Shown one piece after another: positions 37,459-52,182 of a DNA stretch of 64,000 nucleotides. The stretch is from the NCBI RefSeq assembly GCF_013307435.2, contig NZ_CP102845.1, positions 2,737,001-2,801,000 of the forward strand, read 5' to 3'. The stretch's first letter is position 1. The number at the start of each line of letters is the position of its first letter. This DNA is from Microvirga terrae (GTDB lineage: Bacteria > Pseudomonadota > Alphaproteobacteria > Rhizobiales > Beijerinckiaceae). The position numbers and the translations under genes are program-made. The notes beneath the pieces were generated by a model that had not been told where the DNA came from, did not search any database, and worked only from the letters and a program-made list of their open reading frames with translations.

Positions 37459-37548
37459 TGGCGGAGGGGGTGGGATTCGAACCCACGGTGGGCTTGCACC
37501 CACGGCGGTTTTCAAGACCGCTGCCTTAAACCACTCGGCCACCCCTCC
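37459..37548 (-). tRNA. tRNA-Ser (anticodon UGA)
   Basis: A 90-nt class II tRNA on the minus strand. Acceptor GGAGGGG pairs with CCCCTCC. The anticodon stem GCGGT/ACCGC holds loop CTTGAAA with anticodon TGA. A long variable arm (GTGGG...CCCAC) marks tRNA-Ser, and the T-loop GGTTCGAATCC is canonical. CCA is encoded at the 3' end (37459-37461). A 7-bp inverted repeat GGATGCG/CGCATCC lies immediately 5' (37549-37581), perhaps the end of the adhesin-operon transcript or a processing stem. Confidence 0.96.
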
Positions 37549-37659: not shown

Positions 37660-40600
37660 TCACGACCAATGCGTGCGCGCCGTATCGATGTGAAGATCGT
37701 CGATGGGCTGAATAGTGTCCGCGACAGGCTGATCGAGCCCCGGCGACGGATGAGGCCCGGCGTGATGGGGATCGCCTGCACTGACCTGATCCGTCCAGGC
37801 GCTCGAGGCGTCGTGGCCGGGATCGAGGACCCCGTCCGCCATCAGCAGGAGGATGTCCGATCCGGAGAGTTCCTGGGTCGTTCCGGAATCCGCCCCGGCG
37901 GCGAGGCCGTGAACCTCCGGTGCTGCCGGCGGGGGCTCGTCCACGACGATTTCGACGGATCTCGGCGTAGAGGTCGCGCCCTCGCTGTCGTGCAACGTGA
38001 CCGAGATGCTCCTGGATCCGGCCGCGAGCCCCGCGGCATCGCTGCTCTCGAGGACGAGAGACTGAAGCACCGCAGCATAGGTCTCAGGCTTGGCGTGGCC
38101 GCTCAGCGTCAGGGCCCCGGCCACATAGCCGCCGCCGACCACCTCGATGCCCGTATCGCCGATCATCAGGTGCCCGTTCTGGTCATGGAGGGCATAGCCG
38201 TCGAAGTCGAGACGATCGTTCGGCTGCCCGCCGGACAAGGTGATGGTCGCGCCACCGAGCTGGGTGCTGTCGATGTCGCTCGCCTGGGCCGCCCCGATCG
38301 CGTGGGCCTGATGCGCGCTCGCGCCCGCATGGGCCGGCGCGGTCAGGGTCAGCTCGGGAGCGTCGTTCACCGGCTCGATGGTCACCGTGAAGGGAGTCGT
38401 TGTCGTCGCGGTCTCGCCGGTCGCCTCGGTGCTCGTGGCCTGAAGGGTGAGATGCAGCGTCCCGTGCCAGTCGTCGGCGGGGATGAGCTGGAGGCCCGTC
38501 AGAGCCCCCGCAGGAACCCGCCATGCGCCGCCGGCGAGCGCCTCGCCCTGCGAGAGCCTGCAGTCCGCGGGAATTCCCAGAATGGTCACCGAGAGGGTCT
38601 CGGAGCCGTCGGTGTCCACAAGGGCGGCGGACAGGTCCAGTGCGATCGCATGATCCTCCTGCCCGAGCACGTCGCGGGCGGTCACCTCGGGTGCGTCGGC
38701 TACCGCAGCAACGGTCACCAGATGGGTTCCGGTGACGTCGCGGGTCGAAGTGACGCCGTTGCCCGTGTCGGTGATGGTCGCTTTGAGGGTCAGGGTGAAA
38801 TCCGCATCGCTGTGACCCGAGAGCTGAACCGATACGAGACCGGCCCGCAGGTCGGACGTGGAGACCAGCCAGGTGCCGGGCGCCTGCTGGGAGCCCACGG
38901 TCAGGCTCGCGCCGGTCGGAAGGCCCGAGACCTGGGTGAACTCCGACCAGGCCTCGGATCCGTCGTTGTCCTGGAGGGTGAAGGTCGGCTTGATCAGGAT
39001 CGAAGTATCCTCGGCTCCCGCGCTCATGCCGCCGATCGTCCCTGCATCCGCGACAGGGTTGAGGCTCACCGTGAAGTCCGCCGAGGTCCGGGCAGTCGAC
39101 CCGCCGGTTTTTTCCGTGGCCACCCCGGTCAGCGTGAGGGTAAACTCGCCCGAGAACTGCGCAGGCGGGGTCAGAGTCAGACCGGTCAGCTGCGCGGGCG
39201 TCAGCAGCCAGCTGCCGTCTGCCTGCTTCATGCCTGCGTTGAGGCTGGCCCCCGCAGGCACGCCGCTGAGCACGAACTCCAGGGTCTCGGACCCGTCCGT
39301 ATCGCGCAGGGAGCCGCCCAGGCCCGCAAGGCTGACCGTCGTGTCCTCACTGCCGGTGGCATCGGACACGATCACCTCGGGAGCATCCGCAACGGCACCG
39401 ACCTGAACGCGGAAGCTCGCCTCGCTCGTAATGGGCACACCCGCGCTCTCCTGAGCCGTGGCCCGTATGGTGAGCGAAAACGTCCCCGAGTAGTTCTCAG
39501 GCGGAGTGACTTCGAGGTGCGGCAGGTCGGCTGGCGAAACGATCCATGTGCCGTCACCCTGAGGCGAGCCATGGGAGAGTCGAGCTCCGGCCGGCATGCC
39601 CGAGATGACAACCGTCAGCACCTCCGAGCCGTCCCGGTCCGTCAGGGCTGCCGAGAGGTTCAACGCTATCGGCTGATCCTCGAGACCGGACGCATCGCGG
39701 GCGCTCACGACCGGCGCGTCGCTCACGGCATCCACCTGCACCTGGAACGTGCCGCGGGTGGTCGCCACGGAGCCGTTGGACGTCTCCCGCGCGTGGGCCA
39801 GCAGGGTCAGGTTCATGGTCCCGCTCCAGTCGCCCGGCGGCGTGACGGTGAGACCGGCGAGCTGGGAGGGCGTGAGCGTCCAGCTGCCATCGCCGTTGTT
39901 GATGCCCGTGGACAGGCGCGCCCCTTCGGGCAGCCCCTCGATCACCACGGAAAGCACCTCCGAGCCGTCGGTATCCGTCAGCTGGGCCGAGACGTTGAGA
40001 CTGATGGTCCCGTCTTCGTTCCCCGCCGCATTGTGCACTTCGATCGTCGGTGCATCGGCCGCAGGCGCGACCGAAACGGAAATCGTCCGGCTCGTGCTCT
40101 GCGTGACGCCGTTGCTCCCTTCCTGAGTCGTCGCCTCGACTTTCAGTTCGAAGGTCCCGTACTTGTCCGGCGGCGGCACGAAGCGCAGGCTCGCGAGATC
40201 GGCGGCTTCGACCCGCCACTTTCCCCCTCCGAGATCGATGAGTCCCGTGCCTTCCAGGCGTGCGCCCGCCGGAAGATTGGAGATGACGATCGACGTGACG
40301 CTCTCGCTCCCGTCGCGGTCGCTCGCCGTGACGGAAAGGTTGAGCGGGACTCCCGTGTCCTCGACGCCCGCGGGAGGATTGGCGCCGATGACGGCATGGT
40401 CCGCAACGGGGGTGACGTCGACGTTCAGCGCGGCGATCGTGCTCGTCTGGCTGCCTGTGGCCTCGGTGGAAACGGCCGCGACCTTGAGCGTGATCGTTCC
40501 CGAGAAGTCGGCCGGGGGCGTCAGGGTCAGTCCGGTCAACTGATCAGGGCGAAGCACCCACGCGCCGGTCGCCGGGTCCCGCACGCCGGCCGACAGGTAC

Positions 40601-43600
40601 GCGCCGGCGGGAACGCCCTCGATGCGGATGCCGAGGGTCTCGCGACCGCTATCCGTGTCGTTGGTATTGGCATCGATGGACAACACAATCGCGTTGTCCT
40701 CGTTCGTGACCGCATTGTGCACCGTCAGGCCGGGAGCCTGCGCGACCGGCGCGGTGCCGGGCGTGGTGCCCGATCCGCCACCGGTGCCCTCGCCGCCACC
40801 CACAGGAGCGGTGACCGTCACCGGGACGATTTCGGTCCGGTCGGCCTGATCGCCCTCGCGCTCCACTCCGACGGCGGTCACAGTCAGATTGAAACTCCCG
40901 GTGAACCCGGCCGGGGGACGGATCGACAGCGTCGGCAGGGACTCGACCGGGACCAGCCACAGCTTTTCGCCCGCCGGGATGCCGGCGGACAGAACGGCGC
41001 CGTCGGGCACATTCCGGACCCAGATATACAAGGTTTCCGAGCCGTCGTTGTCGCCGGGGAGCGCCGTAATGTGAAGCGGGATCCGACCGTCGTCGGGATT
41101 GATGCTGGTATGGCCTGTGCCGGTCGATTGTTCGAAAGTCAGGACCGGCGTGTCGGCATCGCCGAGCGGATCCACCACCATCTGACCGCCGATCGTCGCC
41201 CGCACGCCGCCGCTGTCCTCGATCATCATCGTCACGTGGAGGGTGGCCGCCCGGTCGCTGTCGTGCGGCATCGTGAGCGTGATCCCGGTCATGTCCTTTG
41301 CGGCGATCCTGTAGACGCCGTGTTCGTCCGGCGTGACGACGCTGTCATCCGCCAGGCGCAGAACGGCTCCGTCGGGAACCCCGCTGATGAGAATGTCGCC
41401 GACGACCTTCTCCGAATTGTCGCTGTCCGTGAGGCCGGGATCGAGGCGCAGCGCGATGGGCCGATCCTCGGTTCCGTGCATGGCCCCCCAGTTGCCAGAG
41501 ACCCCGTCGAGACCGCCGACGGCGGGTACGTCCACCACCGCTTTGACCTCGACCGGGAACGTGACGGGCGTCCTGGCCTCGTCGCCTCCCCGCTCCTCCT
41601 GCGAGACCGCCGTCACGGACAGATTGATCGTGCCGGAAAAATTGGCCGGCGGCAGCAGCGTGACCGCCTTGGCCTCCGCTGCCGTCAGCGACCAGACGCC
41701 GGGGCCGCGATAGGTACCGTGGGACATGATCGCGCCATCCGGCACGCCCCTGATCACGAAGCTCAGCGCCTCGGACCCGTCGCTGTCCGGAAGGGTCGCC
41801 GTGAGGTTGAGGGCGATCGGAGTATCCTCCAGGCCGCTGGCGCTGGTGACATCCATCACCGGAGCGTCCGCGACCGCCCGCACCGTCACCGGGATGTCGC
41901 GCGGCTCGCTCTCGGCCGTACTGCCGTTGGGCTCGGCCGAGACCGCCACCACGCGCACGGAGAAATCCGCGTCCGATTGAGCAGGCGGCGTGATGGTCAG
42001 GCTGTTCACCTGCGCCGGATCGACCAACACGCTCCCGTCGACCGCGACCAGTTCCATGCCACCGGCGCGGACGGTCGCTCCATTCGGAATGCCCGTGATC
42101 CTGAATTCGACGATCTTTTCCGAACCGTCCCGATCGGTGGTCCAGGCCGTCATGTTCAACGGAATGGCCGTATCCTCGTCGCCGAAGGCCGGCGCGACCC
42201 GCAGCCCCGGTGCATCCGCGACGGCGTCGACCGTGACCTGGAAGGACACGTCGCGCATTTCGGTCCTGCCGGTCGATGTCTCCTTGGCGGTCGCTTCGAG
42301 CCTCAGATCGATCGTTCCCGAAAAGTCCGCCGGAGGCTTCAGGGAAATGCTCGAGAGATCCTTTGCGTCCACGAGCCAGGAGCCGTCGGACTGAGGTGTG
42401 CCCTTCGTCAGGGAGGCGCCGCTCGGGACGCCATAGATCCTGACCGCAAGGGTTTCCGAGCCATCGGTGTCCACCAGCGAGGCCGAGAGGTCCAGCGCGA
42501 TCGCCTGATCCTCCTTTCCGGACACGTCCGAAGCGCTCACGTTCGGCGCGTCCGTCACGGCCAGGACCTTGACGCCGTAGGTGCCCGTCACCTCCTCGTG
42601 GACAGTCTTTCCGTTGCCGGTGTCGCTCAGAGTCGCCTTGAGAGTCAGACTGAAGTCCTCATCGCTGTTGACTGGCGGTTTGACGTACACCCGCCCGGCC
42701 TGCAGATCCGCCGTGGACACGGTCCACACGCCGTCCGCGAGCGTCCCTCGGCTGAGGGTAGCGCCTGCCGGAACTCCGATGATCTGAGTCGTTTCGGACC
42801 ACTGTTCCGATCCGTCGACATCGGGCGTGCCGAATGACGGTTTCAGGCGGATCCACGTGTCCTCGTTGCCCCTGCCCGATCCGCCAATCGTTCCCGTGTC
42901 GAGAACCGGGTCGAGATCCACGGTGAACGGCGCCGAGTTCTGAGCGGCCGGGGCGCTCGGGTCGCTCTCGGTCGCAACGGCCGTGAGCGTCAAGGTGATC
43001 CTGCCGGAGACGTTCGGCGGCGGCGTGAGGATCACCCCGTCGAGCTGAGCCGGGGTGAGAAGCCAGCGTCCGTCCGCCTGCTTGACGCCTACATTGAGGG
43101 TTGCACCGGCCGGAACGGTCAGGAGAAAGCTCAGGCTCTCCGAGCCATCGAGATCGCGCAGCGCTCCGCCGAGCCCCTTGAGGACGACAGGCTCATCCTC
43201 GCGTCCGGAGAAGTTCGCCACGGTGACGTCGGGCGTATCGGCAACCGCGCCGACCTCGACGCGGAAAGCGGCGGAGCTGGTCCGCGTATCGCCGTTGCCT
43301 TCTTTCGCCGTCGCCTCGATGCGCAGGGTCAGCACACCCGAAAAGTCTTTCTGCGGCATGAGCGAAAGGTGCGGGAGATCGGCGGGAGACACGCTCCAGC
43401 TGCCGTCCTGCTGCCGGATGCCGTGGGACAGGCCGACATCAGCCGGCACGCCGAAGATGGCGACGGATAGCACTTCAGATCCGTCCCGATCCTTCAAAGT
43501 CGCGGACAGATCGAGCGCGACCGGCGTGTCCTCGAGACCCTTGACGTCGTGAACCACGATTTGCGGAGCATCAGCGACCGCCTCGACCTCGACCTTGAAG

Positions 43601-46600
43601 GGAACCCGCGTCGTCGCGGTCGATCCGTTCGACGTTTCCCGCGACTGAGCCACCAGGGTCAGGGCCATGGTGCCGCTCCAGTCGGCGGGCGGCGTGATCT
43701 TGAGTCCGGTGAGCTGTGCCGGAGACAGGCTCCAGGTGCCGTCGCCGTTGTCCTTGCCAGCGGACAGCTGGGCGCCCGGCGGCAGGCCTTCGATCACGAA
43801 CGACAGCACTTCCGAACCGTCGATATCGGTCAGAGCGCCCAAAAGGTCGAGACCCGCGGGCTGGTCTTCCTTGGTGGCCGCGTCATGGGCGCCGGCCTGG
43901 GGGATGTCGGCAACGGCCTCCACATGCACCCGGAAAGGAGCATCGGTCGTCGCCGTCGAGCCGTTTTCGCTCAACGAGACCGCGCGCAGGGTCAGGCTGA
44001 TCGTGCCGGAGAAGTTCTCCGGCGGCAGGATGGAGAGGTTCGACAGATCCGCCACATCCACATGCCAGCTGCCGTCCGCTGCGCGGTTGCCGCGCGACAG
44101 CGAAGCCCCAGGCGGAACGCCGAGGATGCTGACCGACAGAGTCTCGGAACCGTCTGTATCGGTCAGAGCGGCGGAGAGGTCGAGGGCAGCCCATCGGTCT
44201 TCGGGTCCCGACGCGTCTTGGACGCTGACCGCCGGAGCGTCGGAGACGTTGTCGACCTCCACCTGGAAGCCGGTGCTCCGGGTTGCGATCGAGCCGTTCG
44301 ACGTCTCGCGGGTGGTTGCCTCGAGGGTCAGATTGATCGTGCCGGAAAAGTCCTTCGGGGCCGTGATGGTGAGATGCGCGAGGTCGGTCGGCGGCACGCT
44401 CCAGCTGCCGTCGGCCTGGCGTACACCGTGCGAGAGTGATGCGTCCGCCGGCACGCCGAGGATGCGGACCGACAGGACTTCCGACCCGTCGGCATCGACG
44501 AGAGCAGCCGAGAGTTTCAGCGGGATCGGGCGATCCTCGTCCCCGGTCACGTTGGCCGCCGAGATCGTGGGGGCATCGGCGACGGCTGACACCGCAACCG
44601 TATGTGTTCCGGTCACGACCCGGCTCGCGCTCCGGCCATCCACACTGTCGATCAGCGTCGCGGTCAGGGTCAGGGCGAAATCCTGGTCGCTGTGCTCGGC
44701 CGGTCGAACCGCGATGAGCCCGGCCTGCAGGTCGGCCGTCGACACCTGCCACACGCCCGGCGCGATCTCGGTGCCGCGGTTGAGCGAGGCGCCGGCCGGC
44801 AGACCCGCCACCTGGGTAAATTCGGCCCAGCTCTCGGATCCGTCCCCATCCGGAATGACGAAGGTCGGCTGGAGCAGGATCTCCGTATCCTCCGGTCCGG
44901 CGCTCGCGCCTGAAACGGTACCGGCGTCGGCGACTGGATCGACGATGACGTTGAAGGTCGTGCTGCTGCGAGCGCTCGGAACGCCGGGCTCACTCTCGGT
45001 GGCGACGGCCGTGAGAGTGAGGCGGATCGTCCCGGAGAAATCCCTGGGTGGCGTGATCGACAGGACTCCGAGGTCCGCCGGAGACACGCTCCAGCTGCCA
45101 TCCGACTGGCGCGTGCCGTGCGACAGCGAGGCGCCGTCCGGGACACCGAGAATGCTGACAGACAGAACTTCCGACCCGTCGGTGTCGACGAGCCGGGCGG
45201 ACAGGTCGAGCGGAATCGGCTGGTCCTCGTCGCCCGATACGTCGGCGGCGGCGATCGAAGGGGCATCGGCGACGGCTGTGACGGTGACGGAATGCGTTCC
45301 GGTCACGACGCGACTGGCGCTCGTGCCGTTGGCGCTGTCGATCAGGGTCGCGGTCAGCGTCAGGGTGAAATCGGCATCGCTGTGGGCGGCGGGCCGGATG
45401 GTCACGAGCCCGGCCCGCAGATCCGCGGTCGCGACCTGCCACAGGCCCGGCGCGATCTCGGTGCCGCGGTTGAGCGAGGCGCCGGCTGGGAGGCCCGCCA
45501 CCTGGGTAAATTGGGCCCAGCTCTCGGATCCATCCGCATCCGGACTCATGAAGGTCGGGCGAAGCAGGATCGGGGCGTCTTCCGATCCCATGCTCGTCCC
45601 GCTGATCGTGCCAGCATCCGCCACCGGATCGACGACGACGTTGAACGTGGCCGAGGTCCGGGCGCTCGGGACGCCCGGCTCGCTTTCGGTCGCGATAGCC
45701 GTCAGAGTCAGGGTGAACGACCCGGATGCCTGCAGGGGTGGAGTGAAGGTGAGGCCTTCGAGTTGTGCCGGCGTCAGGGCCCAGCGGCCACCACCGAGCG
45801 CCGTGCCGGCGCTGAGCGTGGCTCCTTCGGGCACTCCGCTGAGCACGAAGCTGAGGCTCTCCGAACCGTCCGTATCACGCAACGCGCCGCCGAGGCCAGC
45901 GAGGCTCACGGGAACGTCCTCGTGTCCGTGAGCGTCGGCGACCGTCACGGCCGGCGCGTCGGCCACTGCATGGACCTGCACCCGGAACGGCGCATCGACG
46001 AACGACGTCCCGCCATTCACCTCCTGCGATGTGGCTCGCAGAGTGAGGCTGACGGTGCCGGAGAAGTTCTCCGGCGGAACGAATCCGAGATGCTGCAGAT
46101 CGGCCGGCGACACGGTCCAGCTGCCGTCCGGCTGGCGCGTCCCATGGGTCAGCGATGCGCCTTCGGGAACGCCAAAGATCGTGATCGACAGCGCCTCCGA
46201 GCCGTCCGTGTCGCCCAGGATGGCCGTGAGGTCGAGCGCGATCGGCTGATCCTCCTCGCCCGACGCATCGGCGACCTGGACGCGTGGAGGAGAGGCCATC
46301 GTATCGCGTGGCTCCTCGGGCTGAGGCTCCCCGGGCGTCGGCTGGTCTACGGAAGGCGGCGCCACGACGGCCTGGTCCTCACGCTCGGAGGGACCCACGG
46401 TTGCGAATCCAGGCTCAAATGAGGACCCGGTCGAGGAAGGCGGCGTGCTGGAGGATCCTGCAACCGCTCCCGCCTTCGCAGAGACGGACGATCGCACGAG
46501 GGTCGAAGCAACCTCCGGAGCATCGGCAATGACTCTCCGGATATCGATCGGCAAGCCGGACAGAGACGGCGTCTCCAGCCTCCCGAGCGCCACGTCGATC

Positions 46601-46842
46601 GGTCTGGCAGCCTGGGTTTCTGCTAGCGGCGCGATCCCAGCGGTTGCCGCGGAGCCGCCTCCCGTCGGGGCTCCCGGCACCATGCCGAAAGCCGCCACCG
46701 CCTCCGTTCCACCAACGAGATTGCCGCTGGCACCGCCATCGCCGACGGGAACCGCCCGCTGCACGGCGCGCAGGGCCCGCAGGGCCTCCTCGTCGACCAC
46801 GCTGGCATCGAATGGAATGGTCAGATCAGGTTGCTGGGTCAT
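37660..46842 (-). CDS. Giant cadherin/Ig-like repeat protein, probable type I-secreted adhesin
   Basis: A 3060-aa acidic protein. It has no Sec signal peptide. Residues about 1-190 are unique, starting MTQQPDLTIPFDASVVDEEA. From about 200 to 2850 there are 23 repeat units averaging 115 aa with the core pattern DTDGSExLSVxIxGVPxGAxL, then (DGSW)xVxxxDL, xxPxxFSGTxxLTL and a FxVxVxAVADAP junction. The DxDGSE motif looks calcium-binding, as in cadherin-like and VCBS-type bacterial adhesins. Four units (3, 5, 11, 22) are of a second type (WxEFTQVxGLPxGASL). The last about 200 residues are a different beta-rich domain, and the C-terminus carries no RTX nonapeptides. Almost no Cys: I noticed one, in repeat 23. 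It lies 8 bp after an HlyD gene and two ABC exporter genes, so a T1SS cargo is the best reading. Confidence 0.85.
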   Translation of the reverse strand: MTQQPDLTIPFDASVVDEEALRALRAVQRAVPVGDGGASGNLVGGTEAVAAFGMVPGAPTGGGSAATAGIAPLAETQAARPIDVALGRLETPSLSGLPIDIRRVIADAPEVASTLVRSSVSAKAGAVAGSSSTPPSSTGSSFEPGFATVGPSEREDQAVVAPPSVDQPTPGEPQPEEPRDTMASPPRVQVADASGEEDQPIALDLTAILGDTDGSEALSITIFGVPEGASLTHGTRQPDGSWTVSPADLQHLGFVPPENFSGTVSLTLRATSQEVNGGTSFVDAPFRVQVHAVADAPAVTVADAHGHEDVPVSLAGLGGALRDTDGSESLSFVLSGVPEGATLSAGTALGGGRWALTPAQLEGLTFTPPLQASGSFTLTLTAIATESEPGVPSARTSATFNVVVDPVADAGTISGTSMGSEDAPILLRPTFMSPDADGSESWAQFTQVAGLPAGASLNRGTEIAPGLWQVATADLRAGLVTIRPAAHSDADFTLTLTATLIDSANGTSASRVVTGTHSVTVTAVADAPSIAAADVSGDEDQPIPLDLSARLVDTDGSEVLSVSILGVPDGASLSHGTRQSDGSWSVSPADLGVLSITPPRDFSGTIRLTLTAVATESEPGVPSARSSTTFNVIVDPVADAGTVSGASAGPEDTEILLQPTFVIPDGDGSESWAEFTQVAGLPAGASLNRGTEIAPGVWQVSTADLQAGLIAVRPAEHSDQDFALTLTATLIDSVDGRSASRVVTGTHTVAVSAVADAPTISAANVTGDEDRPIPLKLSAALVDADGSEVLSVRILGVPADASLSHGVRQADGSWSVPPTDLAHLTITAPKDFSGTINLTLEATTRETSNGSIATRSTGFQVEVDNVSDAPAVSVQDASGPEDRWAALDLSAALTDTDGSETLSVSILGVPPGASLSRGNRAADGSWHVDVADLSNLSILPPENFSGTISLTLRAVSLSENGSTATTDAPFRVHVEAVADIPQAGAHDAATKEDQPAGLDLLGALTDIDGSEVLSFVIEGLPPGAQLSAGKDNGDGTWSLSPAQLTGLKITPPADWSGTMALTLVAQSRETSNGSTATTRVPFKVEVEAVADAPQIVVHDVKGLEDTPVALDLSATLKDRDGSEVLSVAIFGVPADVGLSHGIRQQDGSWSVSPADLPHLSLMPQKDFSGVLTLRIEATAKEGNGDTRTSSAAFRVEVGAVADTPDVTVANFSGREDEPVVLKGLGGALRDLDGSESLSFLLTVPAGATLNVGVKQADGRWLLTPAQLDGVILTPPPNVSGRITLTLTAVATESDPSAPAAQNSAPFTVDLDPVLDTGTIGGSGRGNEDTWIRLKPSFGTPDVDGSEQWSETTQIIGVPAGATLSRGTLADGVWTVSTADLQAGRVYVKPPVNSDEDFSLTLKATLSDTGNGKTVHEEVTGTYGVKVLAVTDAPNVSASDVSGKEDQAIALDLSASLVDTDGSETLAVRIYGVPSGASLTKGTPQSDGSWLVDAKDLSSISLKPPADFSGTIDLRLEATAKETSTGRTEMRDVSFQVTVDAVADAPGLRVAPAFGDEDTAIPLNMTAWTTDRDGSEKIVEFRITGIPNGATVRAGGMELVAVDGSVLVDPAQVNSLTITPPAQSDADFSVRVVAVSAEPNGSTAESEPRDIPVTVRAVADAPVMDVTSASGLEDTPIALNLTATLPDSDGSEALSFVIRGVPDGAIMSHGTYRGPGVWSLTAAEAKAVTLLPPANFSGTINLSVTAVSQEERGGDEARTPVTFPVEVKAVVDVPAVGGLDGVSGNWGAMHGTEDRPIALRLDPGLTDSDNSEKVVGDILISGVPDGAVLRLADDSVVTPDEHGVYRIAAKDMTGITLTMPHDSDRAATLHVTMMIEDSGGVRATIGGQMVVDPLGDADTPVLTFEQSTGTGHTSINPDDGRIPLHITALPGDNDGSETLYIWVRNVPDGAVLSAGIPAGEKLWLVPVESLPTLSIRPPAGFTGSFNLTVTAVGVEREGDQADRTEIVPVTVTAPVGGGEGTGGGSGTTPGTAPVAQAPGLTVHNAVTNEDNAIVLSIDANTNDTDSGRETLGIRIEGVPAGAYLSAGVRDPATGAWVLRPDQLTGLTLTPPADFSGTITLKVAAVSTEATGSQTSTIAALNVDVTPVADHAVIGANPPAGVEDTGVPLNLSVTASDRDGSESVTSIVISNLPAGARLEGTGLIDLGGGKWRVEAADLASLRFVPPPDKYGTFELKVEATTQEGSNGVTQSTSRTISVSVAPAADAPTIEVHNAAGNEDGTISLNVSAQLTDTDGSEVLSVVIEGLPEGARLSTGINNGDGSWTLTPSQLAGLTVTPPGDWSGTMNLTLLAHARETSNGSVATTRGTFQVQVDAVSDAPVVSARDASGLEDQPIALNLSAALTDRDGSEVLTVVISGMPAGARLSHGSPQGDGTWIVSPADLPHLEVTPPENYSGTFSLTIRATAQESAGVPITSEASFRVQVGAVADAPEVIVSDATGSEDTTVSLAGLGGSLRDTDGSETLEFVLSGVPAGASLNAGMKQADGSWLLTPAQLTGLTLTPPAQFSGEFTLTLTGVATEKTGGSTARTSADFTVSLNPVADAGTIGGMSAGAEDTSILIKPTFTLQDNDGSEAWSEFTQVSGLPTGASLTVGSQQAPGTWLVSTSDLRAGLVSVQLSGHSDADFTLTLKATITDTGNGVTSTRDVTGTHLVTVAAVADAPEVTARDVLGQEDHAIALDLSAALVDTDGSETLSVTILGIPADCRLSQGEALAGGAWRVPAGALTGLQLIPADDWHGTLHLTLQATSTEATGETATTTTPFTVTIEPVNDAPELTLTAPAHAGASAHQAHAIGAAQASDIDSTQLGGATITLSGGQPNDRLDFDGYALHDQNGHLMIGDTGIEVVGGGYVAGALTLSGHAKPETYAAVLQSLVLESSDAAGLAAGSRSISVTLHDSEGATSTPRSVEIVVDEPPPAAPEVHGLAAGADSGTTQELSGSDILLLMADGVLDPGHDASSAWTDQVSAGDPHHAGPHPSPGLDQPVADTIQPIDDLHIDTARTHWS

Positions 46843-46850
46843 GGATGTGC

Positions 46851-48299
46851 TCAGCGCTCGTGAAAGGATGCCGCGATGGCGGAGTAGATCGGCTTCAGCA
46901 GATACTGCAGCACCGTCTTGGTGCCGGTGGTAATGTCCGCCTGGACGGTCATGCCGGCGACGAGCTGCGCGTGACGCGGGTCATGGCCGACATGCTGCTG
47001 CTTCAGGGCGATGCGGGCGCGGTAGTGCGGCTGCCGCTGCTCGTCGAGGAAGGTGCCGGCCGAGATGCGCTCCACCGTCCCTTCCACGGAGCCGAAGCGC
47101 GCGTAGTCGAAGGCCTGAACCTTCACATGCACCGGCTGGCCGACCTCGATGAAACCGATATCGCGTGGCATCAGGCGGACGTCCGCCACGAGCTGCGCGT
47201 CCTGCGGCATGATTTCCGCGATCAGTCCGCCGGGCGGCAGCACCGTTCCCGGGCGATGGACGGCAAGCCCGCGCACGACGCCGCCGATCGGCGCGCGCAG
47301 CACGATCCGCTCGGCCCTGTCTTCCAGCTTGTGGACCAGGTCACTCGTCTCGGCGACCTCGAGGGCGACGCGAGCCGCCTCCTGCCGCGCCTCGTCGACC
47401 GCCGCGGACCGCGCCTCGACGACCCGGGCTTCGGCCTCGGCGAGACTACGCTGCGCTGTGGCACGCTGACTGGTCAGCCGCTCGTGCTCGGCCTTGGCGC
47501 TCATGAAAAGGCGCTGCGCTTCCAGCACCGAGAGACGCGTCGTCAGGCCATTGCGGGCGAGGTCCTCACGAATTCCAAGCTCCTTGGAATGCAGCTCCAT
47601 CTGTTCCTGAACGGACGTGATCTGTCCCGCCAACGTTGCCAGATCGCCGCGCCGCTGCGCCACCTGCTCCTGCAGAACCGAAACGCGGTCGCCCAGGGCC
47701 TTCAGGCGTGCGGTCAGGGCCGCGCGCTGCGGCTCGAGGAACTTCCCGGAGGCCAGGGGCGGCAAGGTTTCAGCCTCTCCGCCCGCATGAGCAATGACCC
47801 CGGCCAGCGGCCCCTGACGCCCACGAAGGTCGAGAGCCACCATGTTGCCCTCGGCAGCTGCAGCAAGGCGCTCCGACTGCAATTGGAGAGATTCGAGCCT
47901 ATGACGCGCCTGCGACAGCTCCGACTGCGCGATCGCATCGTTCATGCGCATGAGAGCCTGCCCCTCCTCGACGGATTCGCCCTCGTTCACGAGCACCTCG
48001 GCGACGATCCCGCCCTCGAGATGCTGAACGGGCGCGGGCGCCACGGTCGGGGCGATCTCGCCCACGCTGACGGCGACTTCCGGCACATGGGCAAGCGTCG
48101 CCCAGGTCAGTCCTGCGGCGACCAGAAGCCCGGTTCCGAGGACGACCGTTCGTTCGAGCCCATGCACCCGCAGCTCTTCGAGGGCAAGCACATGGCCGTC
48201 GGGACGCGGCTTGCGGCTTGCACGCGGCAGGACATGACGGTCCGCCATCGGCGGGAGGATTTCGCCGGTCGTGGCGGAGAGTGCGGTCTTGCTCATCAT
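46851..48299 (-). CDS. HlyD-family periplasmic adaptor of a type I secretion system
   Basis: Membrane-fusion protein (482 aa) linking the ABC exporter to a TolC-like outer-membrane channel. It has a short cytoplasmic N-terminus, one TM helix at about residues 53-75 (TVVLGTGLLVAAGLTWATLA), a lipoyl-like half (VQHLEGGIVAEVLVNEGE), a long coiled-coil hairpin (about 110-330) and the second lipoyl/beta-barrel half (RIVLRAPIGGVVRGLAVHRP). It ends with the HlyD signature-like RARIALKQQ and AGMTVQADITTGTKTVLQYL. The start overlaps the upstream ABC stop by 4 bases, and its stop is 8 bp before the giant adhesin. No TolC-like gene is present in the window. Confidence 0.93.
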   Translation of the reverse strand: MMSKTALSATTGEILPPMADRHVLPRASRKPRPDGHVLALEELRVHGLERTVVLGTGLLVAAGLTWATLAHVPEVAVSVGEIAPTVAPAPVQHLEGGIVAEVLVNEGESVEEGQALMRMNDAIAQSELSQARHRLESLQLQSERLAAAAEGNMVALDLRGRQGPLAGVIAHAGGEAETLPPLASGKFLEPQRAALTARLKALGDRVSVLQEQVAQRRGDLATLAGQITSVQEQMELHSKELGIREDLARNGLTTRLSVLEAQRLFMSAKAEHERLTSQRATAQRSLAEAEARVVEARSAAVDEARQEAARVALEVAETSDLVHKLEDRAERIVLRAPIGGVVRGLAVHRPGTVLPPGGLIAEIMPQDAQLVADVRLMPRDIGFIEVGQPVHVKVQAFDYARFGSVEGTVERISAGTFLDEQRQPHYRARIALKQQHVGHDPRHAQLVAGMTVQADITTGTKTVLQYLLKPIYSAIAASFHER

Positions 48300-50485
48300 G
48301 CAACTTTCGAGTTGTTGGCGGCAGACAGATGACCGAAGGCGGCGTTCGCCACGGACGGGCCGATCGGAGCTCTCGTCGGACGGGGGCCGACGGGAGGAGC
48401 CGTCTGCTGGTCGAGTTCTTCCACCTGACCGTCACGCAGGCGCAGGACGCGGTCGGCCAGCCGGATGTGGCTCGGCCGGTGGGTTGCCATCAGGATCGTG
48501 CAACGGCCGCGGCGCGAGGCGATGACGTCGGTGAAGGCTTTCGCGCAGGCGTCGTCGAGACCCGCGACAGGTTCATCGAGCAACAGGATCGGCGCATTAC
48601 GCAGCAAGGCGCCCGCAAGGGCGATCCGTTGCAGGATGCTGCGCGGCAGGCGGCCGCTCTGGTTGTCGCCCACTCGGGTGTCGAAGCCCTGCGGCAGCGC
48701 CTCGATGGCCTCAAGGACACCGGCTTCCGCGGCCGCGTCGCGGAGCTCCGTGTCCGACGCGCTGGGGCGGGCGAGACGCAGGTTCTGCGCCACCGTGCCG
48801 TAGAGAAGACCGGGCGATTGCGGCACCCAGCCGATGCTGCGACGAAGCACGGCGGGGTTGAAGGAGCGCACGTCGTGGCTGTCGATCCGAACGAGTCCAC
48901 CCTGAGGCCTGTAGAGCCCTGCGATCAGCAGAAGCAGGGTCGATTTGCCACTTCCTTCCGCACCCGTCACGGCAACGACCTGACCGGGCTGGATGGCGAA
49001 GCTGGCACCGGCGAGAACCGGTTCGGATTGCGGAAGATAGCGCAGGGTCACGCGCTGGAACACGATGGCGCCCTGCTCCGGCGGCGCCATGCGCGCCTCG
49101 AGCGGCGGAGGCCGTTCCGTCTCCAGGGCCATCAGCCCGTCGACCTGCCGGATGGAGGCCTGTGTCTGCTCCCAGCGCGACAGCATCACGAAGCAGGTCT
49201 GCAGCGGGCCGAGAATTCGCCAGATCAGCATCATCCCGGCAATCAGCGCACCTGCGGTCATCGAGCCGCCCAGAACCGCGAGCACTCCCATCACGACGGC
49301 GGCGAGACCCGACAGGGTCACGAGAGCTTGGCTCGTGGCGAGAACCGACCCGGACAAGGTGCTGACCCGGGCCGAGGCGACGGCCGCGGCAGCCGCTGCG
49401 GCGGAATAGCGATCGATCCAGCGCTCCTCAGCCCCGACGAGCTTCAGGGTCCTGACGGTTTCGAGAGCTTCGACAGCGAGCGCTTCCCGCGCCTGATTGG
49501 CCCGAGCGGCCTGCTCAATCGCCAGTCGCATCGGGCCGCGGGACACGAGGTAGAGGGCGACGAACCCGATGGCCGTGCCCACCGGAACCACCGCAATCCA
49601 GCCCCCCAGCAGCACCATGAGGATGATGACGAGCAGCGTGAAAGGCATGTCGAGAAGAGCGACGGCGAAACTGCCCGTGAGAAACTCACGGATCGCCGCG
49701 AAATCGCGGAGCCGCGAGACTTGGGAGGCGGTTCCGGCTCTTTCCACCAGGGCCGTCGGCAGGGACATGAGCTGCGTGAAGACGGCGCTCGGCACGGTCC
49801 GGTCGAGCCGTTCCGCGATGCTGAGCAGAGCCCGCTGGCGAATGGACCGGAATGCGACCTCAAGGAGGATGGCGATTGCCGCGCCAACGACCAGCATCGG
49901 CAGGGTCTGCGGGCTATAGCCGGCGATCACGGTGTCGAACACCGACATGGTGAATACGGGCACCGCGAGCCCGAGCACCGCCATCAATCCGCTGATGCCG
50001 AGCAGCGCCGGCAGATCGCCGCGGAACCGCCGGGCGATTCCGCTGAACCACCCCTGACGCGACGCTCCTACATCCGCATCGATGACGAGCATCAAGGTCC
50101 CGCGAAGCGTCTCCGGGCTGCAGGGCTCCACGTGGCCGGTCGCCCCGTCGAGGAGAAGGATTCTCCCCTCTTCGTCGCGATAGACGATTGCCGCTGCGCC
50201 GCCCGTCGGGAGCAGGATCGCCGGCAGCCGCCTCGGGTCGAGGCTCCCGCGCGACAGGCGCTCCATGCGGGTCGGATAGCCCAGGATGGCCAGAGTGTTC
50301 CGCACGTCCGTGATGTCGAGGTCCGGTTTGACATGCGGCAGAGCCGACAGCAGATCGTCCGCGCTGCCGGACCATTCCATCAGCCACAGCATGGACGTCA
50401 GGCAGCGGGCGAGATCGGATGGCGCAACCAGATCCTCCGGCAGTTCCAGCGGAAAGCGCGAACGGTCTTCCTTGGCCAGGTTCAT
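48296..50485 (-). CDS. Type I secretion ABC exporter half A, with degenerate C39-like domain
   Basis: A 729-aa exporter half. Residues 1-140 resemble a C39 peptidase-like domain, but the catalytic pattern is absent: the position expected to read GHW reads GGAAAIVYR, so it is presumably a non-proteolytic substrate-docking (CLD) domain. About 155-440 is the six-helix TM domain. The ATPase domain has Walker A GAEGSGKST at 508-516, Walker B ILLLDE with catalytic Glu638, and the H-loop ATHRPS. Its signature motif is degraded (QSGRLPRSILQR at 609-620 instead of LSGGQ). It overlaps both neighbours by 4 bases. It likely pairs with the 566-aa half next door. Confidence 0.9.
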   Translation of the reverse strand: MNLAKEDRSRFPLELPEDLVAPSDLARCLTSMLWLMEWSGSADDLLSALPHVKPDLDITDVRNTLAILGYPTRMERLSRGSLDPRRLPAILLPTGGAAAIVYRDEEGRILLLDGATGHVEPCSPETLRGTLMLVIDADVGASRQGWFSGIARRFRGDLPALLGISGLMAVLGLAVPVFTMSVFDTVIAGYSPQTLPMLVVGAAIAILLEVAFRSIRQRALLSIAERLDRTVPSAVFTQLMSLPTALVERAGTASQVSRLRDFAAIREFLTGSFAVALLDMPFTLLVIILMVLLGGWIAVVPVGTAIGFVALYLVSRGPMRLAIEQAARANQAREALAVEALETVRTLKLVGAEERWIDRYSAAAAAAAVASARVSTLSGSVLATSQALVTLSGLAAVVMGVLAVLGGSMTAGALIAGMMLIWRILGPLQTCFVMLSRWEQTQASIRQVDGLMALETERPPPLEARMAPPEQGAIVFQRVTLRYLPQSEPVLAGASFAIQPGQVVAVTGAEGSGKSTLLLLIAGLYRPQGGLVRIDSHDVRSFNPAVLRRSIGWVPQSPGLLYGTVAQNLRLARPSASDTELRDAAAEAGVLEAIEALPQGFDTRVGDNQSGRLPRSILQRIALAGALLRNAPILLLDEPVAGLDDACAKAFTDVIASRRGRCTILMATHRPSHIRLADRVLRLRDGQVEELDQQTAPPVGPRPTRAPIGPSVANAAFGHLSAANNSKVA

Positions 50486-52182
50486 GACACGCGCTCCAAT
50501 CGGCTGTCCCGGATCGCGTAGACCCTGTCGGCGATGTTCAACGTGGAGGGGCGATGCGTGACGATCACCACCGTCACCCTGCCCCGCAGGTCCGCCAGGA
50601 GACGGGCCAGTCGTGCATCGCTGTCGCCGTCGATCTGCGACGTGATGTCGTCCAGGAGCAGGATGCGCGGTTCCTCGACGAGTGCACGAACGACACCGAT
50701 GCGCTGGGCGGCGCCGCGCGGCAAGGGCGTGGCGGCCACACCGACCTGGGTGTGCCAGCCGCCCGGCAAGGCGCTGGCAACCTGGTCGAGACCGAGTTCC
50801 GTCGCCAAGCGCAGGGCCAGACCCTCGCGCTGCGGCTGATGCATGGTCATGTTCTGCAGCAGGGTGCCCCGGACCAGTGCCGGATCCGGCGGCACCAGAG
50901 CGACGAGCCGCCGTGCCGGCCCGACATCGACCTCGGCGAGATCCTGCCCGTCGATCTGGACCTGTCCGCTCGTCGCCTTGAGGTCTCCCGCGATCAGGCG
51001 CAGCAATGCGGAACGGCCGGATCCGTTGGAGCCCGTGATGCCGACGATCTCGCCCGGCAGGGCTTCAAGGTCGAGACCGTCGAACAGCCATTCGCTATAG
51101 CGCGGGGTCCGGAACCGAACGTCCTGCAGAAGAACGTGACCGGCAGGGACCTGCAAGGCGGGCCGCCCGGCGCTGCGTTCCTGCGGAAGCGCCCCGATCT
51201 CGGCGACGCGCCGCTTGCTCTCTCTGAGCGATTGCAGGCGCGACCACAGGGCGACGCCGCCGAGGAGAGGCTGCATCGTGCGACCGACCAGCATGGTGCA
51301 GGCGCCAAGCCCGCCGACGCTGAGCTGTCCGCTCAGAACCATGTGGCACCCGAAGGCCGCGACTCCCACCGTGGCGACCTGGGCCAGCAGCATGCCGCCT
51401 TCCTGACCGGACGAAATCCGATGCGACAGCTTCCGACGCAGTTGCGCGGAGCCGTTCTGCAGGCGCTCGTAGCGCCTCTCCAGCAAGGGCTCGGCGCCCA
51501 GCACCTTCATGGAGTGAATGCAGTTCAGCGTGTCGAAGAGAAAATTGAAGCGACGCTCCTCGGCCATCGCGAGCTCATGTGCCGCGCGGCGAACACGGTG
51601 TCCGGTCAGCGCAGCCAGAAGGCCGACGCCGGCCAGAAGCGTCAGGGGCACCAGAACCAGGGGACCTGCCAGATACCAGATGCCGAGGAGGTAGAGCAGC
51701 GCGAAAGGAAGGTCGAGCATCGCCTGCAGGGCGGGACCGGACCAGGCCTCGCGCAGGGTGCCGATCGCCGAGAGGCGCTCGGCGTAATAGCCGTTGCCGT
51801 GGGCCTCGAGTTCGGACAGAGGGGCATTCAGCAGGCATTGCATGGCCTGGCGATGGGCCTGGGCCTCCGAGGTTGCCGCGACACGGGCGAGCACCCGGCC
51901 GCGCACGTGGCGCAGCAGCGCCTCCAGAAGGACCGCGATGGCCACCGTCGTGGCAAGCACCGCCAGGGTCCCGATAGCCTTGTTCGGCAGGATCCGGTCG
52001 TAGACCTGAAGCAGCGCGACGGGAAGCGCCAGCGCCAGCAGGGTGATGAGCAGCGTCGCCTCTATCACCGGGATCAGGAACCCGATCCCGAAGCGGCCGA
52101 TCAGGCCTCTGAACGGGCGCGTCAGCCAGGGGCCGGCGGACACCATCGATGGTGCCGCGGTAGAAATGGCGGACCGATCCAT
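50482..52182 (-). CDS. Type I secretion ABC exporter half B, with divergent ATPase
   Basis: A 566-aa exporter half and first gene of the secretion operon. TM domain about 33-310 (LIPVIEATLLITLLALALPV opens TM1), no C39-like domain. The ATPase domain is unusual: Walker A GSNGSGRSA at 384-392 has Arg390 in place of the phosphate-binding Lys, the LSGGQ position reads PLPRGAAQR (487-494), and the catalytic Glu after Walker B is Asp512 (LLLDDI). The H-loop His543 is kept (VTHRPS). Half A keeps Walker A Lys and Walker B Glu, so the pair may be an asymmetric heterodimer. The upstream 310 bp hold inverted repeats. Confidence 0.9.
   Translation of the reverse strand: MDRSAISTAAPSMVSAGPWLTRPFRGLIGRFGIGFLIPVIEATLLITLLALALPVALLQVYDRILPNKAIGTLAVLATTVAIAVLLEALLRHVRGRVLARVAATSEAQAHRQAMQCLLNAPLSELEAHGNGYYAERLSAIGTLREAWSGPALQAMLDLPFALLYLLGIWYLAGPLVLVPLTLLAGVGLLAALTGHRVRRAAHELAMAEERRFNFLFDTLNCIHSMKVLGAEPLLERRYERLQNGSAQLRRKLSHRISSGQEGGMLLAQVATVGVAAFGCHMVLSGQLSVGGLGACTMLVGRTMQPLLGGVALWSRLQSLRESKRRVAEIGALPQERSAGRPALQVPAGHVLLQDVRFRTPRYSEWLFDGLDLEALPGEIVGITGSNGSGRSALLRLIAGDLKATSGQVQIDGQDLAEVDVGPARRLVALVPPDPALVRGTLLQNMTMHQPQREGLALRLATELGLDQVASALPGGWHTQVGVAATPLPRGAAQRIGVVRALVEEPRILLLDDITSQIDGDSDARLARLLADLRGRVTVVIVTHRPSTLNIADRVYAIRDSRLERVS

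Follow-up and report, generated by a model that had tools for sequence, protein, structure and literature searches.

The locus analysed here is a four-gene type I secretion locus of Microvirga terrae. It lies in a stretch of 64,000 nucleotides of contig NZ_CP102845.1 (positions 2,737,001 to 2,801,000; assembly GCF_013307435.2), which was analysed as a whole and is referred to as the window; the host genome measures 6.13 Mb. The locus encodes two different halves of an ATP-binding cassette (ABC) exporter, called half A and half B, a HlyD-family adaptor, and a giant repeat protein that is the likely cargo. The exporter of a type I system is generally described as a homodimer.

A four-gene operon

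50482-52182, minus strand: half B, 566 aa, an ABC exporter half (transmembrane and nucleotide-binding domains; PF00664/PF00005) without a C39-like domain and with degenerate ATPase residues
48296-50485, minus strand: half A, 729 aa, an ABC exporter half with a C39-like N-terminal domain and canonical Walker A, Walker B and H-loop (TIGR03375 aligned; predicted structure)
46851-48299, minus strand: HlyD-family periplasmic adaptor, 482 aa (TIGR01843)
37660-46842, minus strand: likely cargo, an acidic giant protein of 3060 aa with about 23 cadherin-like repeats, each some 112 aa long, and without an RTX (repeats in toxin) motif

These genes form one minus-strand operon that begins with half B and continues with half A, the HlyD adaptor and the giant repeat protein. 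Half B and half A overlap by 4 bp (50482-50485), as do half A and the adaptor gene (48296-48299, 4 bp), and a gap of 8 bp (46843-46850) separates the adaptor gene from the cargo gene. The open reading frame (ORF) coordinates agree exactly with the arrangement proposed in an earlier reading of the window from its letters (the sequence-only reading). That reading had also called the locus self-contained, a description that does not hold, as no outer-membrane channel is encoded inside it. The genome has a single match over the cut-off to the TolC-type channel family TIGR01844 (C1:2529402), about 0.24 Mb away, and this TolC probably serves the locus. The adaptor scores 327.4 bits against TIGR01843 (cut-off 208.65).

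The exporter halves

Both halves exceed the Pfam cut-offs for PF00664 and PF00005, the transmembrane and nucleotide-binding domains of an ABC exporter. They share 31% identity across their common core, which bears out the earlier claim of two clearly different halves. The best family match of both is TIGR03375, with 451 bits for half A and 363 bits for half B against a cut-off of 693. Three other A or B members, given alone, also fall under this cut-off (387-514 bits), whereas three LapB-type single exporters from other genomes, used as controls, exceed it with 1001, 995 and 796 bits. An Azospirillum protein in which B and A are fused likewise passes, with 855 bits across two stretches.

The alignment of half A to TIGR03375 starts at model position 3. 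Half B begins near its transmembrane part, with a match from residue 37 and model position 152. One further feature lies near the N-terminus of half A:

50084-50416, minus strand: C39-like N-terminal domain of half A, residues 24-134 (predicted secondary structure; full-length alignment to HlyB and PCAT1)

An alpha/beta domain opens the predicted structure of half A, whose mean predicted local distance difference test score (pLDDT) is 82. The best fold match of half A is HlyB (8dck_A; TMq 0.78 over 685 columns), which it follows along its full length, and the exporters TM287/288 and TmrAB are also among the matches. Two chain lengths occur in the solved HlyB/HlyD complexes: 691-700 modelled residues for one chain and 570 for the chain it pairs with. 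To judge from these chain lengths, an A:B pair of 729 and 566 residues could hard-wire the asymmetry that HlyB homodimers show.

Fusion, phylogeny and recurrence of the pair

The best argument for a single transporter built from A and B is their natural fusion, a line of evidence that the sequence-only reading did not have. The two halves are joined on one polypeptide in 10 fetched loci, comprising Azospirillum L114/L115, L172 (class search) and L231-L237 (phylum search). In Azospirillum lipoferum and A. oryzae, the fusion is a single annotated gene of 1378 and 1354 aa, respectively, with B preceding A, and it adjoins a HlyD gene and, divergently, a gene for an Ig-like protein of about 5,200-5,500 aa. 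A single change accounts for the fused forms on the half-B tree and two are needed on the half-A tree, so that fusion may have happened once or twice. In loci L232-L234, the fused gene is flanked by two HlyD-type adaptor genes; elsewhere there is mostly one adaptor gene per A/B pair.

Phylogeny also treats the halves as distinct groups. In a tree of 60 rows, the B sequences lie on one side of a branch with support 100. The A branch has support 72, rising to 98 for 19 of the 20 A rows when the long-branched L116 is set aside, and single LapB-type exporters form a third group (support 89). Distances among A sequences correlate with those among their B partners (r 0.91, 54 pairs); none of 1000 permutations was as high and none exceeded 0.28. 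This correlation indicates co-inheritance, not contact.

To survey the distribution of the pair, a half-B profile was run against 385 class genomes, an even draw from a larger group. It matched 42 places, scoring 533-755 bits, and these lie in 41 genomes, that of the window among them. The next full-length match stands at 453 bits, and two matches cut off by contig edges, at 477 and 464 bits, could be additional half Bs. All 41 class loci other than the window were fetched: half A adjoins half B in 40, the remaining one ending at a contig edge, and HlyD is present in 37, with the misses at contig ends. Phylum-wide, matches of that strength occur at 77 places in 51 of 398 genomes, three of which are shared with the class set. 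Among 20 phylum places chosen by the analyst, half A was found in 19 and HlyD in all 20. Both scans scored the three best candidates per genome, so the numbers of places per genome are lower bounds. The recurrence search proposed with the sequence-only reading thus found the two halves side by side again and again, both grouping among type I exporters; the refuting outcome, unrelated families that never meet, did not arise.

Named carriers include Magnetospirillum, Roseibium, Azospirillum and a divergent Palleronia (438 bits), and further carriers are metagenome-assembled genomes (MAGs) of Rhodospirillales, Hyphomicrobiales and Bdellovibrionota. Within the genus, a full-length half B at 80-96% identity is present in 17 of 36 other genomes. 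Some genomes sit in two collections (e.g. L031/L189 and L047/L188), and the 127 half-B units represent 111 distinct sequences. Eight units were classed as B alone. Five of these have half A or its start (L240, L245, L246, L024 and L048), two end at contig edges (L150 and L072), and L241 is genuine. Two loci (L026 and L028) have A-like exporters and no complete half B within the stretch examined. In one Microvirga relative (G004, locus L025, the same DNA as L103), only a short half B remnant is present, suggesting loss of the locus.

The surroundings of the pair vary. One Bdellovibrionota MAG (L071, 5104-18424) carries a compact set of an OEP channel, half B, half A, HlyD, a HATPase-domain protein and a cadherin-like giant protein. 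Proteins of about 890 aa are encoded just upstream of half B in L179 (11512-14196), L182 (7198-9888) and L184 (6445-9114), and have in common an N-terminal stretch AEDLDGVTE..FGSGN[LV]. In L182 and L184, HlyD is followed by proteins that, on reading, look membrane-anchored and sensor-like.

ATPase motifs

Motif counts were taken from a set dereplicated at 75% identity, comprising 65 half Bs, 62 half As and 19 single exporters. In the window, both signature motifs depart from the consensus:

50710-50724, minus strand: LPRGA in place of LSGGQ in half B, residues 487-491 (motif reading)
48635-48649, minus strand: LPRSI in place of LSGGQ in half A, residues 613-617 (motif reading)

Going by these motifs, neither half has retained the LSGGQ signature, which was unexpected. 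The signature Gln is retained in 0/65 half Bs and 0/62 half As, versus 19/19 single exporters. The signature Ser is mostly replaced, usually by Pro, and survives in 16/62 half As and 3/65 half Bs. Single exporters keep the Walker A Lys, the catalytic Glu and the S..GQ frame in all 19 cases and the H-loop His in 17. In a looser earlier set, 37 of 39 exporters labelled as single had the Gln, and the exceptions (L026 and L028) look A-like.

Half B is the more degenerate partner. The window's half B has the Walker A motif GSNGSGRS, with Arg390 for Lys, and the Walker B motif ILLLDD, with Asp512 for Glu. Across the family, half B retains the Walker A Lys in 53/65, the catalytic Glu in 44/65 and the H-loop His in 25/65, compared with 62/62, 58/62 and 50/62 for half A. 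On the trees, the fewest changes for B and A are 7 versus 2 (Glu), 17 versus 6 (His) and 9 versus 0 (Lys). The pair does not follow the scheme of one canonical and one degenerate site: half B is more degenerate, yet neither half has LSGGQ. The fourth position of the signature, a Gly, is kept in 57/65 half Bs, where it would face the Walker motifs of A, and in 34/62 half As, where it would face those of B. This is the pattern expected if the A-Walker/B-signature interface is the working site of one dimer. A tabulation of the state of B's catalytic residues against A's signature leans towards a link between the two, in raw counts that take no account of the tree.

The giant repeat protein, a probable cargo

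The co-encoded protein consists of tandem-95/Cadherin_4 repeats. A repeat landmark occurs 21 times at a spacing of about 112 aa, with two double-length steps, which gives about 23 units and matches the earlier description of a 3060-aa repeat protein. It has one cysteine and is acidic, with 391 Asp and Glu residues versus 148 Lys and Arg. Its sequence contains no GGxGxD and not even a GxGxD motif, and no strongly hydrophobic segment was found at its N-terminus (best 15-residue Kyte-Doolittle mean 1.3 among the first 80 windows). This is in line with the sequence-only reading, which saw neither RTX nonapeptides nor an N-terminal signal peptide. RTX-free cargo is not unusual in itself among giant adhesins of the SiiE type. 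Two regions of the cargo are of particular interest:

46648-46842, minus strand: conserved N-terminal block, residues 1-65, containing SGNLVGGTE at 39-47 (alignment of 12 Microvirga cargos)
37663-37917, minus strand: C-terminal tail, residues 2976-3060, candidate secretion signal (predicted disordered; conserved islands GSDILLLMADG and QPIDDL...WS)

A large cargo-type ORF follows HlyD in all 13 Microvirga loci with enough DNA (L188-L196, L198, L201-L203). It is short in L195 (866 aa) and split over two frames in L203/L050. The 12 aligned Microvirga cargos, including that of the window, have a common N-terminal block, and the 11 with a complete end have a common C-terminus. The last 336 residues of the window's cargo are predicted to form Ig/cadherin-like domains followed by 85 disordered residues (mean pLDDT 74; predicted template modelling score, pTM, 0.52), with pLDDT below 50 at model residues 252-336. 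Fold matches of this part include protocadherins and SiiE (E 2e-6 to 1e-5; SiiE 1e-5), at TM-scores of just about 0.2. It is plausible, from this model, that the disordered tail is the type I secretion signal.

Beyond the genus, a cadherin- or Ig-like protein adjoins the exporter in Roseibium, Palleronia, Azospirillum and a Bdellovibrionota MAG, as it does in Microvirga. The cargos of some related loci carry RTX motifs, and a C-terminal ending common to several RTX-bearing cargos of other taxa is absent from the window's cargo. Retention of LapA-type proteins involves an N-terminal module with a TAAG/PAAG cleavage motif. Neither form occurs in the first 200 residues of the window's cargo, where there is only AATAG at 65-69. 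The genome has a striking number of matches to Peptidase_C93 (PF06035, a LapG-like protease), 11 in all and none inside the window. A PF16448 scan for LapD gave no match in the genome, and control genomes were equally silent.

Some exporter-adjacent proteins of other taxa, including a Bdellovibrionota MAG, have a short box (NIHTG, NVHYG or NLHFG) at residue 40-95. A loose pattern for this box was not enriched (36/302 vs 31/374, p 0.12), and a strict pattern was (11/302 vs 1/374, p 0.002). A third pattern, picked with knowledge of the hits, matched 25/182 against 27/910; shuffles averaged 3.7 and reached at most 10. These counts include related loci that were not collapsed (e.g. L147/L149, L151/L154, L160/L161 and L164/L165), and several of the 25 carriers are unlikely to be cargos (e.g. 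L052, L053, L064 and L206). An N-terminal box common to some cargos is thus a lead only, with statistics that are partly post hoc. The cargos of Microvirga, Roseibium and Azospirillum are without it. The SGNLVGG(TE) of the Microvirga cargo might tentatively be taken as its counterpart, although the likeness is at most loose.

Genomic setting

On its 5' side, the locus is preceded by a glyoxalase-like gene, a cobalamin-independent-synthase-like gene and branched-chain-type transporter genes. A tRNA-Ser(TGA) gene (37459-37548, minus strand) lies directly 3' of the cargo gene. Of 12 Microvirga loci scanned, seven have this tRNA gene too, and in two of the five others the available DNA extends fewer than 300 bases beyond the cargo. 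The possibility that the locus is a recent genomic island at this tRNA gene was considered and is not supported. The GC content of the locus is 0.66-0.69, against 0.62-0.67 in its surroundings, the tRNA gene is conserved after the locus in the seven relatives just mentioned, and an ABC-ATPase ORF about 3 kb upstream in the window is kept in L031, L032, L035, L047 and L050.

Interpretation and alternatives

Taken together, these observations make it probable that the locus is a type I secretion locus with an obligate A:B heterodimer as exporter for the co-encoded 3060-aa cadherin-like protein. Half A would bring the sole C39-like domain and the majority of the conserved ATPase residues, and half B would be a partner without the C39-like domain that has lost part of the residues for ATP hydrolysis. 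With the HlyD adaptor and a TolC encoded elsewhere, the A:B pair would export its cargo in one step, unfolded, and the exported protein would most likely act as a surface adhesin. The Walker motifs of A and the signature of B would probably form the working ATP site. Those of B, together with the signature of A, would form a regulatory or ATP-holding site, as in exporters with a degenerate site. In such exporters, ATP at the degenerate site is thought to act as a lasting glue, according to the available portion of PMC7756269, and the B-Walker site may have a similar ATP-holding role.

Several points weigh against this reading. Co-inheritance and fusion bear on the dimer indirectly. The loci were found through half B, and half A without half B would be under-counted. 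At L241, half B and HlyD are present with no half A nearby, a complete pair being found elsewhere in the same genome (L240). No giant repeat protein lies beside the exporter in L051-L065 (Magnetospirillum and other Rhodospirillales or proteobacterial MAGs). In Roseibium L067 and L068, both halves lack the catalytic Glu, so that the rule of A as the working half has exceptions. A search of the literature turned up no export experiment on any A/B member.

A separate observation on Roseibium L067 and L068 is that half A has Tyr for the H-loop His, and neither ATP site looks canonical.

The foremost alternative is that the locus belongs to the multifunctional autoprocessing RTX toxin (MARTX) type of four-component system, RtxB-RtxD-RtxE, serving an adhesin instead. 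The principle is the same, with two unlike ABC proteins, one adaptor, an unlinked TolC and a very large cargo, and the accessible text of PMC3034196 and PMC4316617 describes RtxB and RtxE as both needed, suggests a heterodimer and places the two in separate clades. In those descriptions, however, the ABC genes flank the adaptor (rtxB-rtxD-rtxE), in contrast to the order B-A-HlyD found here, and the loci have an rtxC acyltransferase homologue and an RTX cargo, whereas the window's cargo is adhesin-like and without an RTX motif. Membership in the MARTX type is unlikely.

Somewhat less likely still are two separate homodimers, A2 and B2, that happen to be encoded in one operon, with the second devoted to a different cargo or to regulation. 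Each half does match both the transmembrane and the nucleotide-binding domain, many half Bs keep the Walker A Lys and the catalytic Glu, and L241 has B without A. However, this explanation sits poorly with the ten loci in which B and A are fused and with the single adaptor gene that accompanies most pairs (the two flanking the fused gene in L232-L234 being the other arrangement), and the window's half B, lacking both Lys and Glu, would probably make a poor ATPase as B2. Least credible of all, and very improbable, is that half B is a decaying duplicate nearing loss while half A exports alone: its repeated loss of ATPase residues, the remnant in G004 and the A-like exporters of L026 and L028 would fit, but half B is full-length and well conserved in 17 other genomes of the genus and stands beside half A over wide evolutionary distances.

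The obligate A:B heterodimer can be extended, tentatively and with more doubt than belief, to a hard-wired asymmetric branch of type I secretion. Such a branch would have one C39-like domain per dimer, both ATP sites without LSGGQ and one half freed from catalysis, and might export giant proteins by slow steps driven mostly by ATP binding. Its cargos might be addressed or held by an N-terminal box [N/G/A/S/T]-[I/L/V]-H-x-G near residue 40-95 (SGNLVGG in Microvirga), in addition to the usual C-terminal signal.

A natural heterodimer present in about one tenth of the class genomes sampled would allow each half to be mutated alone. With A and B apart, one can ask which of them recognises the cargo, whether a single ATP site is able to push a chain of 3000 aa, and whether a dimer can manage with one C39-like domain. 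That LSGGQ is missing from A and B alike raises the question of whether protein export can do without the best-known ABC motif. The N-terminal box seen in some cargos, should it be confirmed, would offer a new way to predict exported proteins.

Comparison with known systems

With its ABC exporter and HlyD adaptor, the locus is equipped like a type I secretion system and can be expected to function as one. Its nearest family is that of LapB and LssB (TIGR03375), which is the best match of both halves and with which it shares the C39-like architecture of half A, a HlyD partner and a giant repeat cargo. In contrast, neither half of the window passes the curated cut-off, A/B members alone scoring 363-514 bits, and the A/B locus has two unlike subunits that have both lost LSGGQ. 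HlyB, the haemolysin exporter, is encoded by one gene and acts as a homodimer; the likeness to it lies in the half A model, which matches 8dck_A along its length. Giant adhesins of the SiiE and LapA type have long Ig- or cadherin-like repeat arrays and are exported by type I systems. SiiE chains are among the fold matches of the cargo's C-terminal part, at the low TM-scores given above; the window's cargo differs in having no TAAG/PAAG in its first 200 residues and an N-terminal block of its own kind.

The heterodimeric exporters TM287/288 and TmrAB likewise have two halves, one with degenerate ATPase residues, as described in the available parts of PMC7756269 and PMC8277102. The A/B pair differs from them in that it sits with HlyD in a type I locus, and both signatures, not one, depart from LSGGQ. 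Tandem ABC genes modelled as a heterodimer are also known from the BapP cluster of Pseudoalteromonas; this cluster is of a different type because it has a separate LolD-like ATPase, going by the accessible text of PMC12153261.

MARTX secretion is the closest precedent in principle, a likeness drawn between descriptions rather than between RtxB or RtxE sequences and the two halves. The sequence-only suggestion of a little-described system stands in part. No description of the A/B family was found in the literature at the level of titles and abstract openings, in a search with most subscription journals outside its coverage, whereas a type I system with two ATPases was already known from RtxB and RtxE, as the consulted portions of PMC3034196 and PMC4316617 relate. 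The evidence points to a locus that adds a variant to type I secretion, widespread and little studied, within a two-ATPase principle that is already known.

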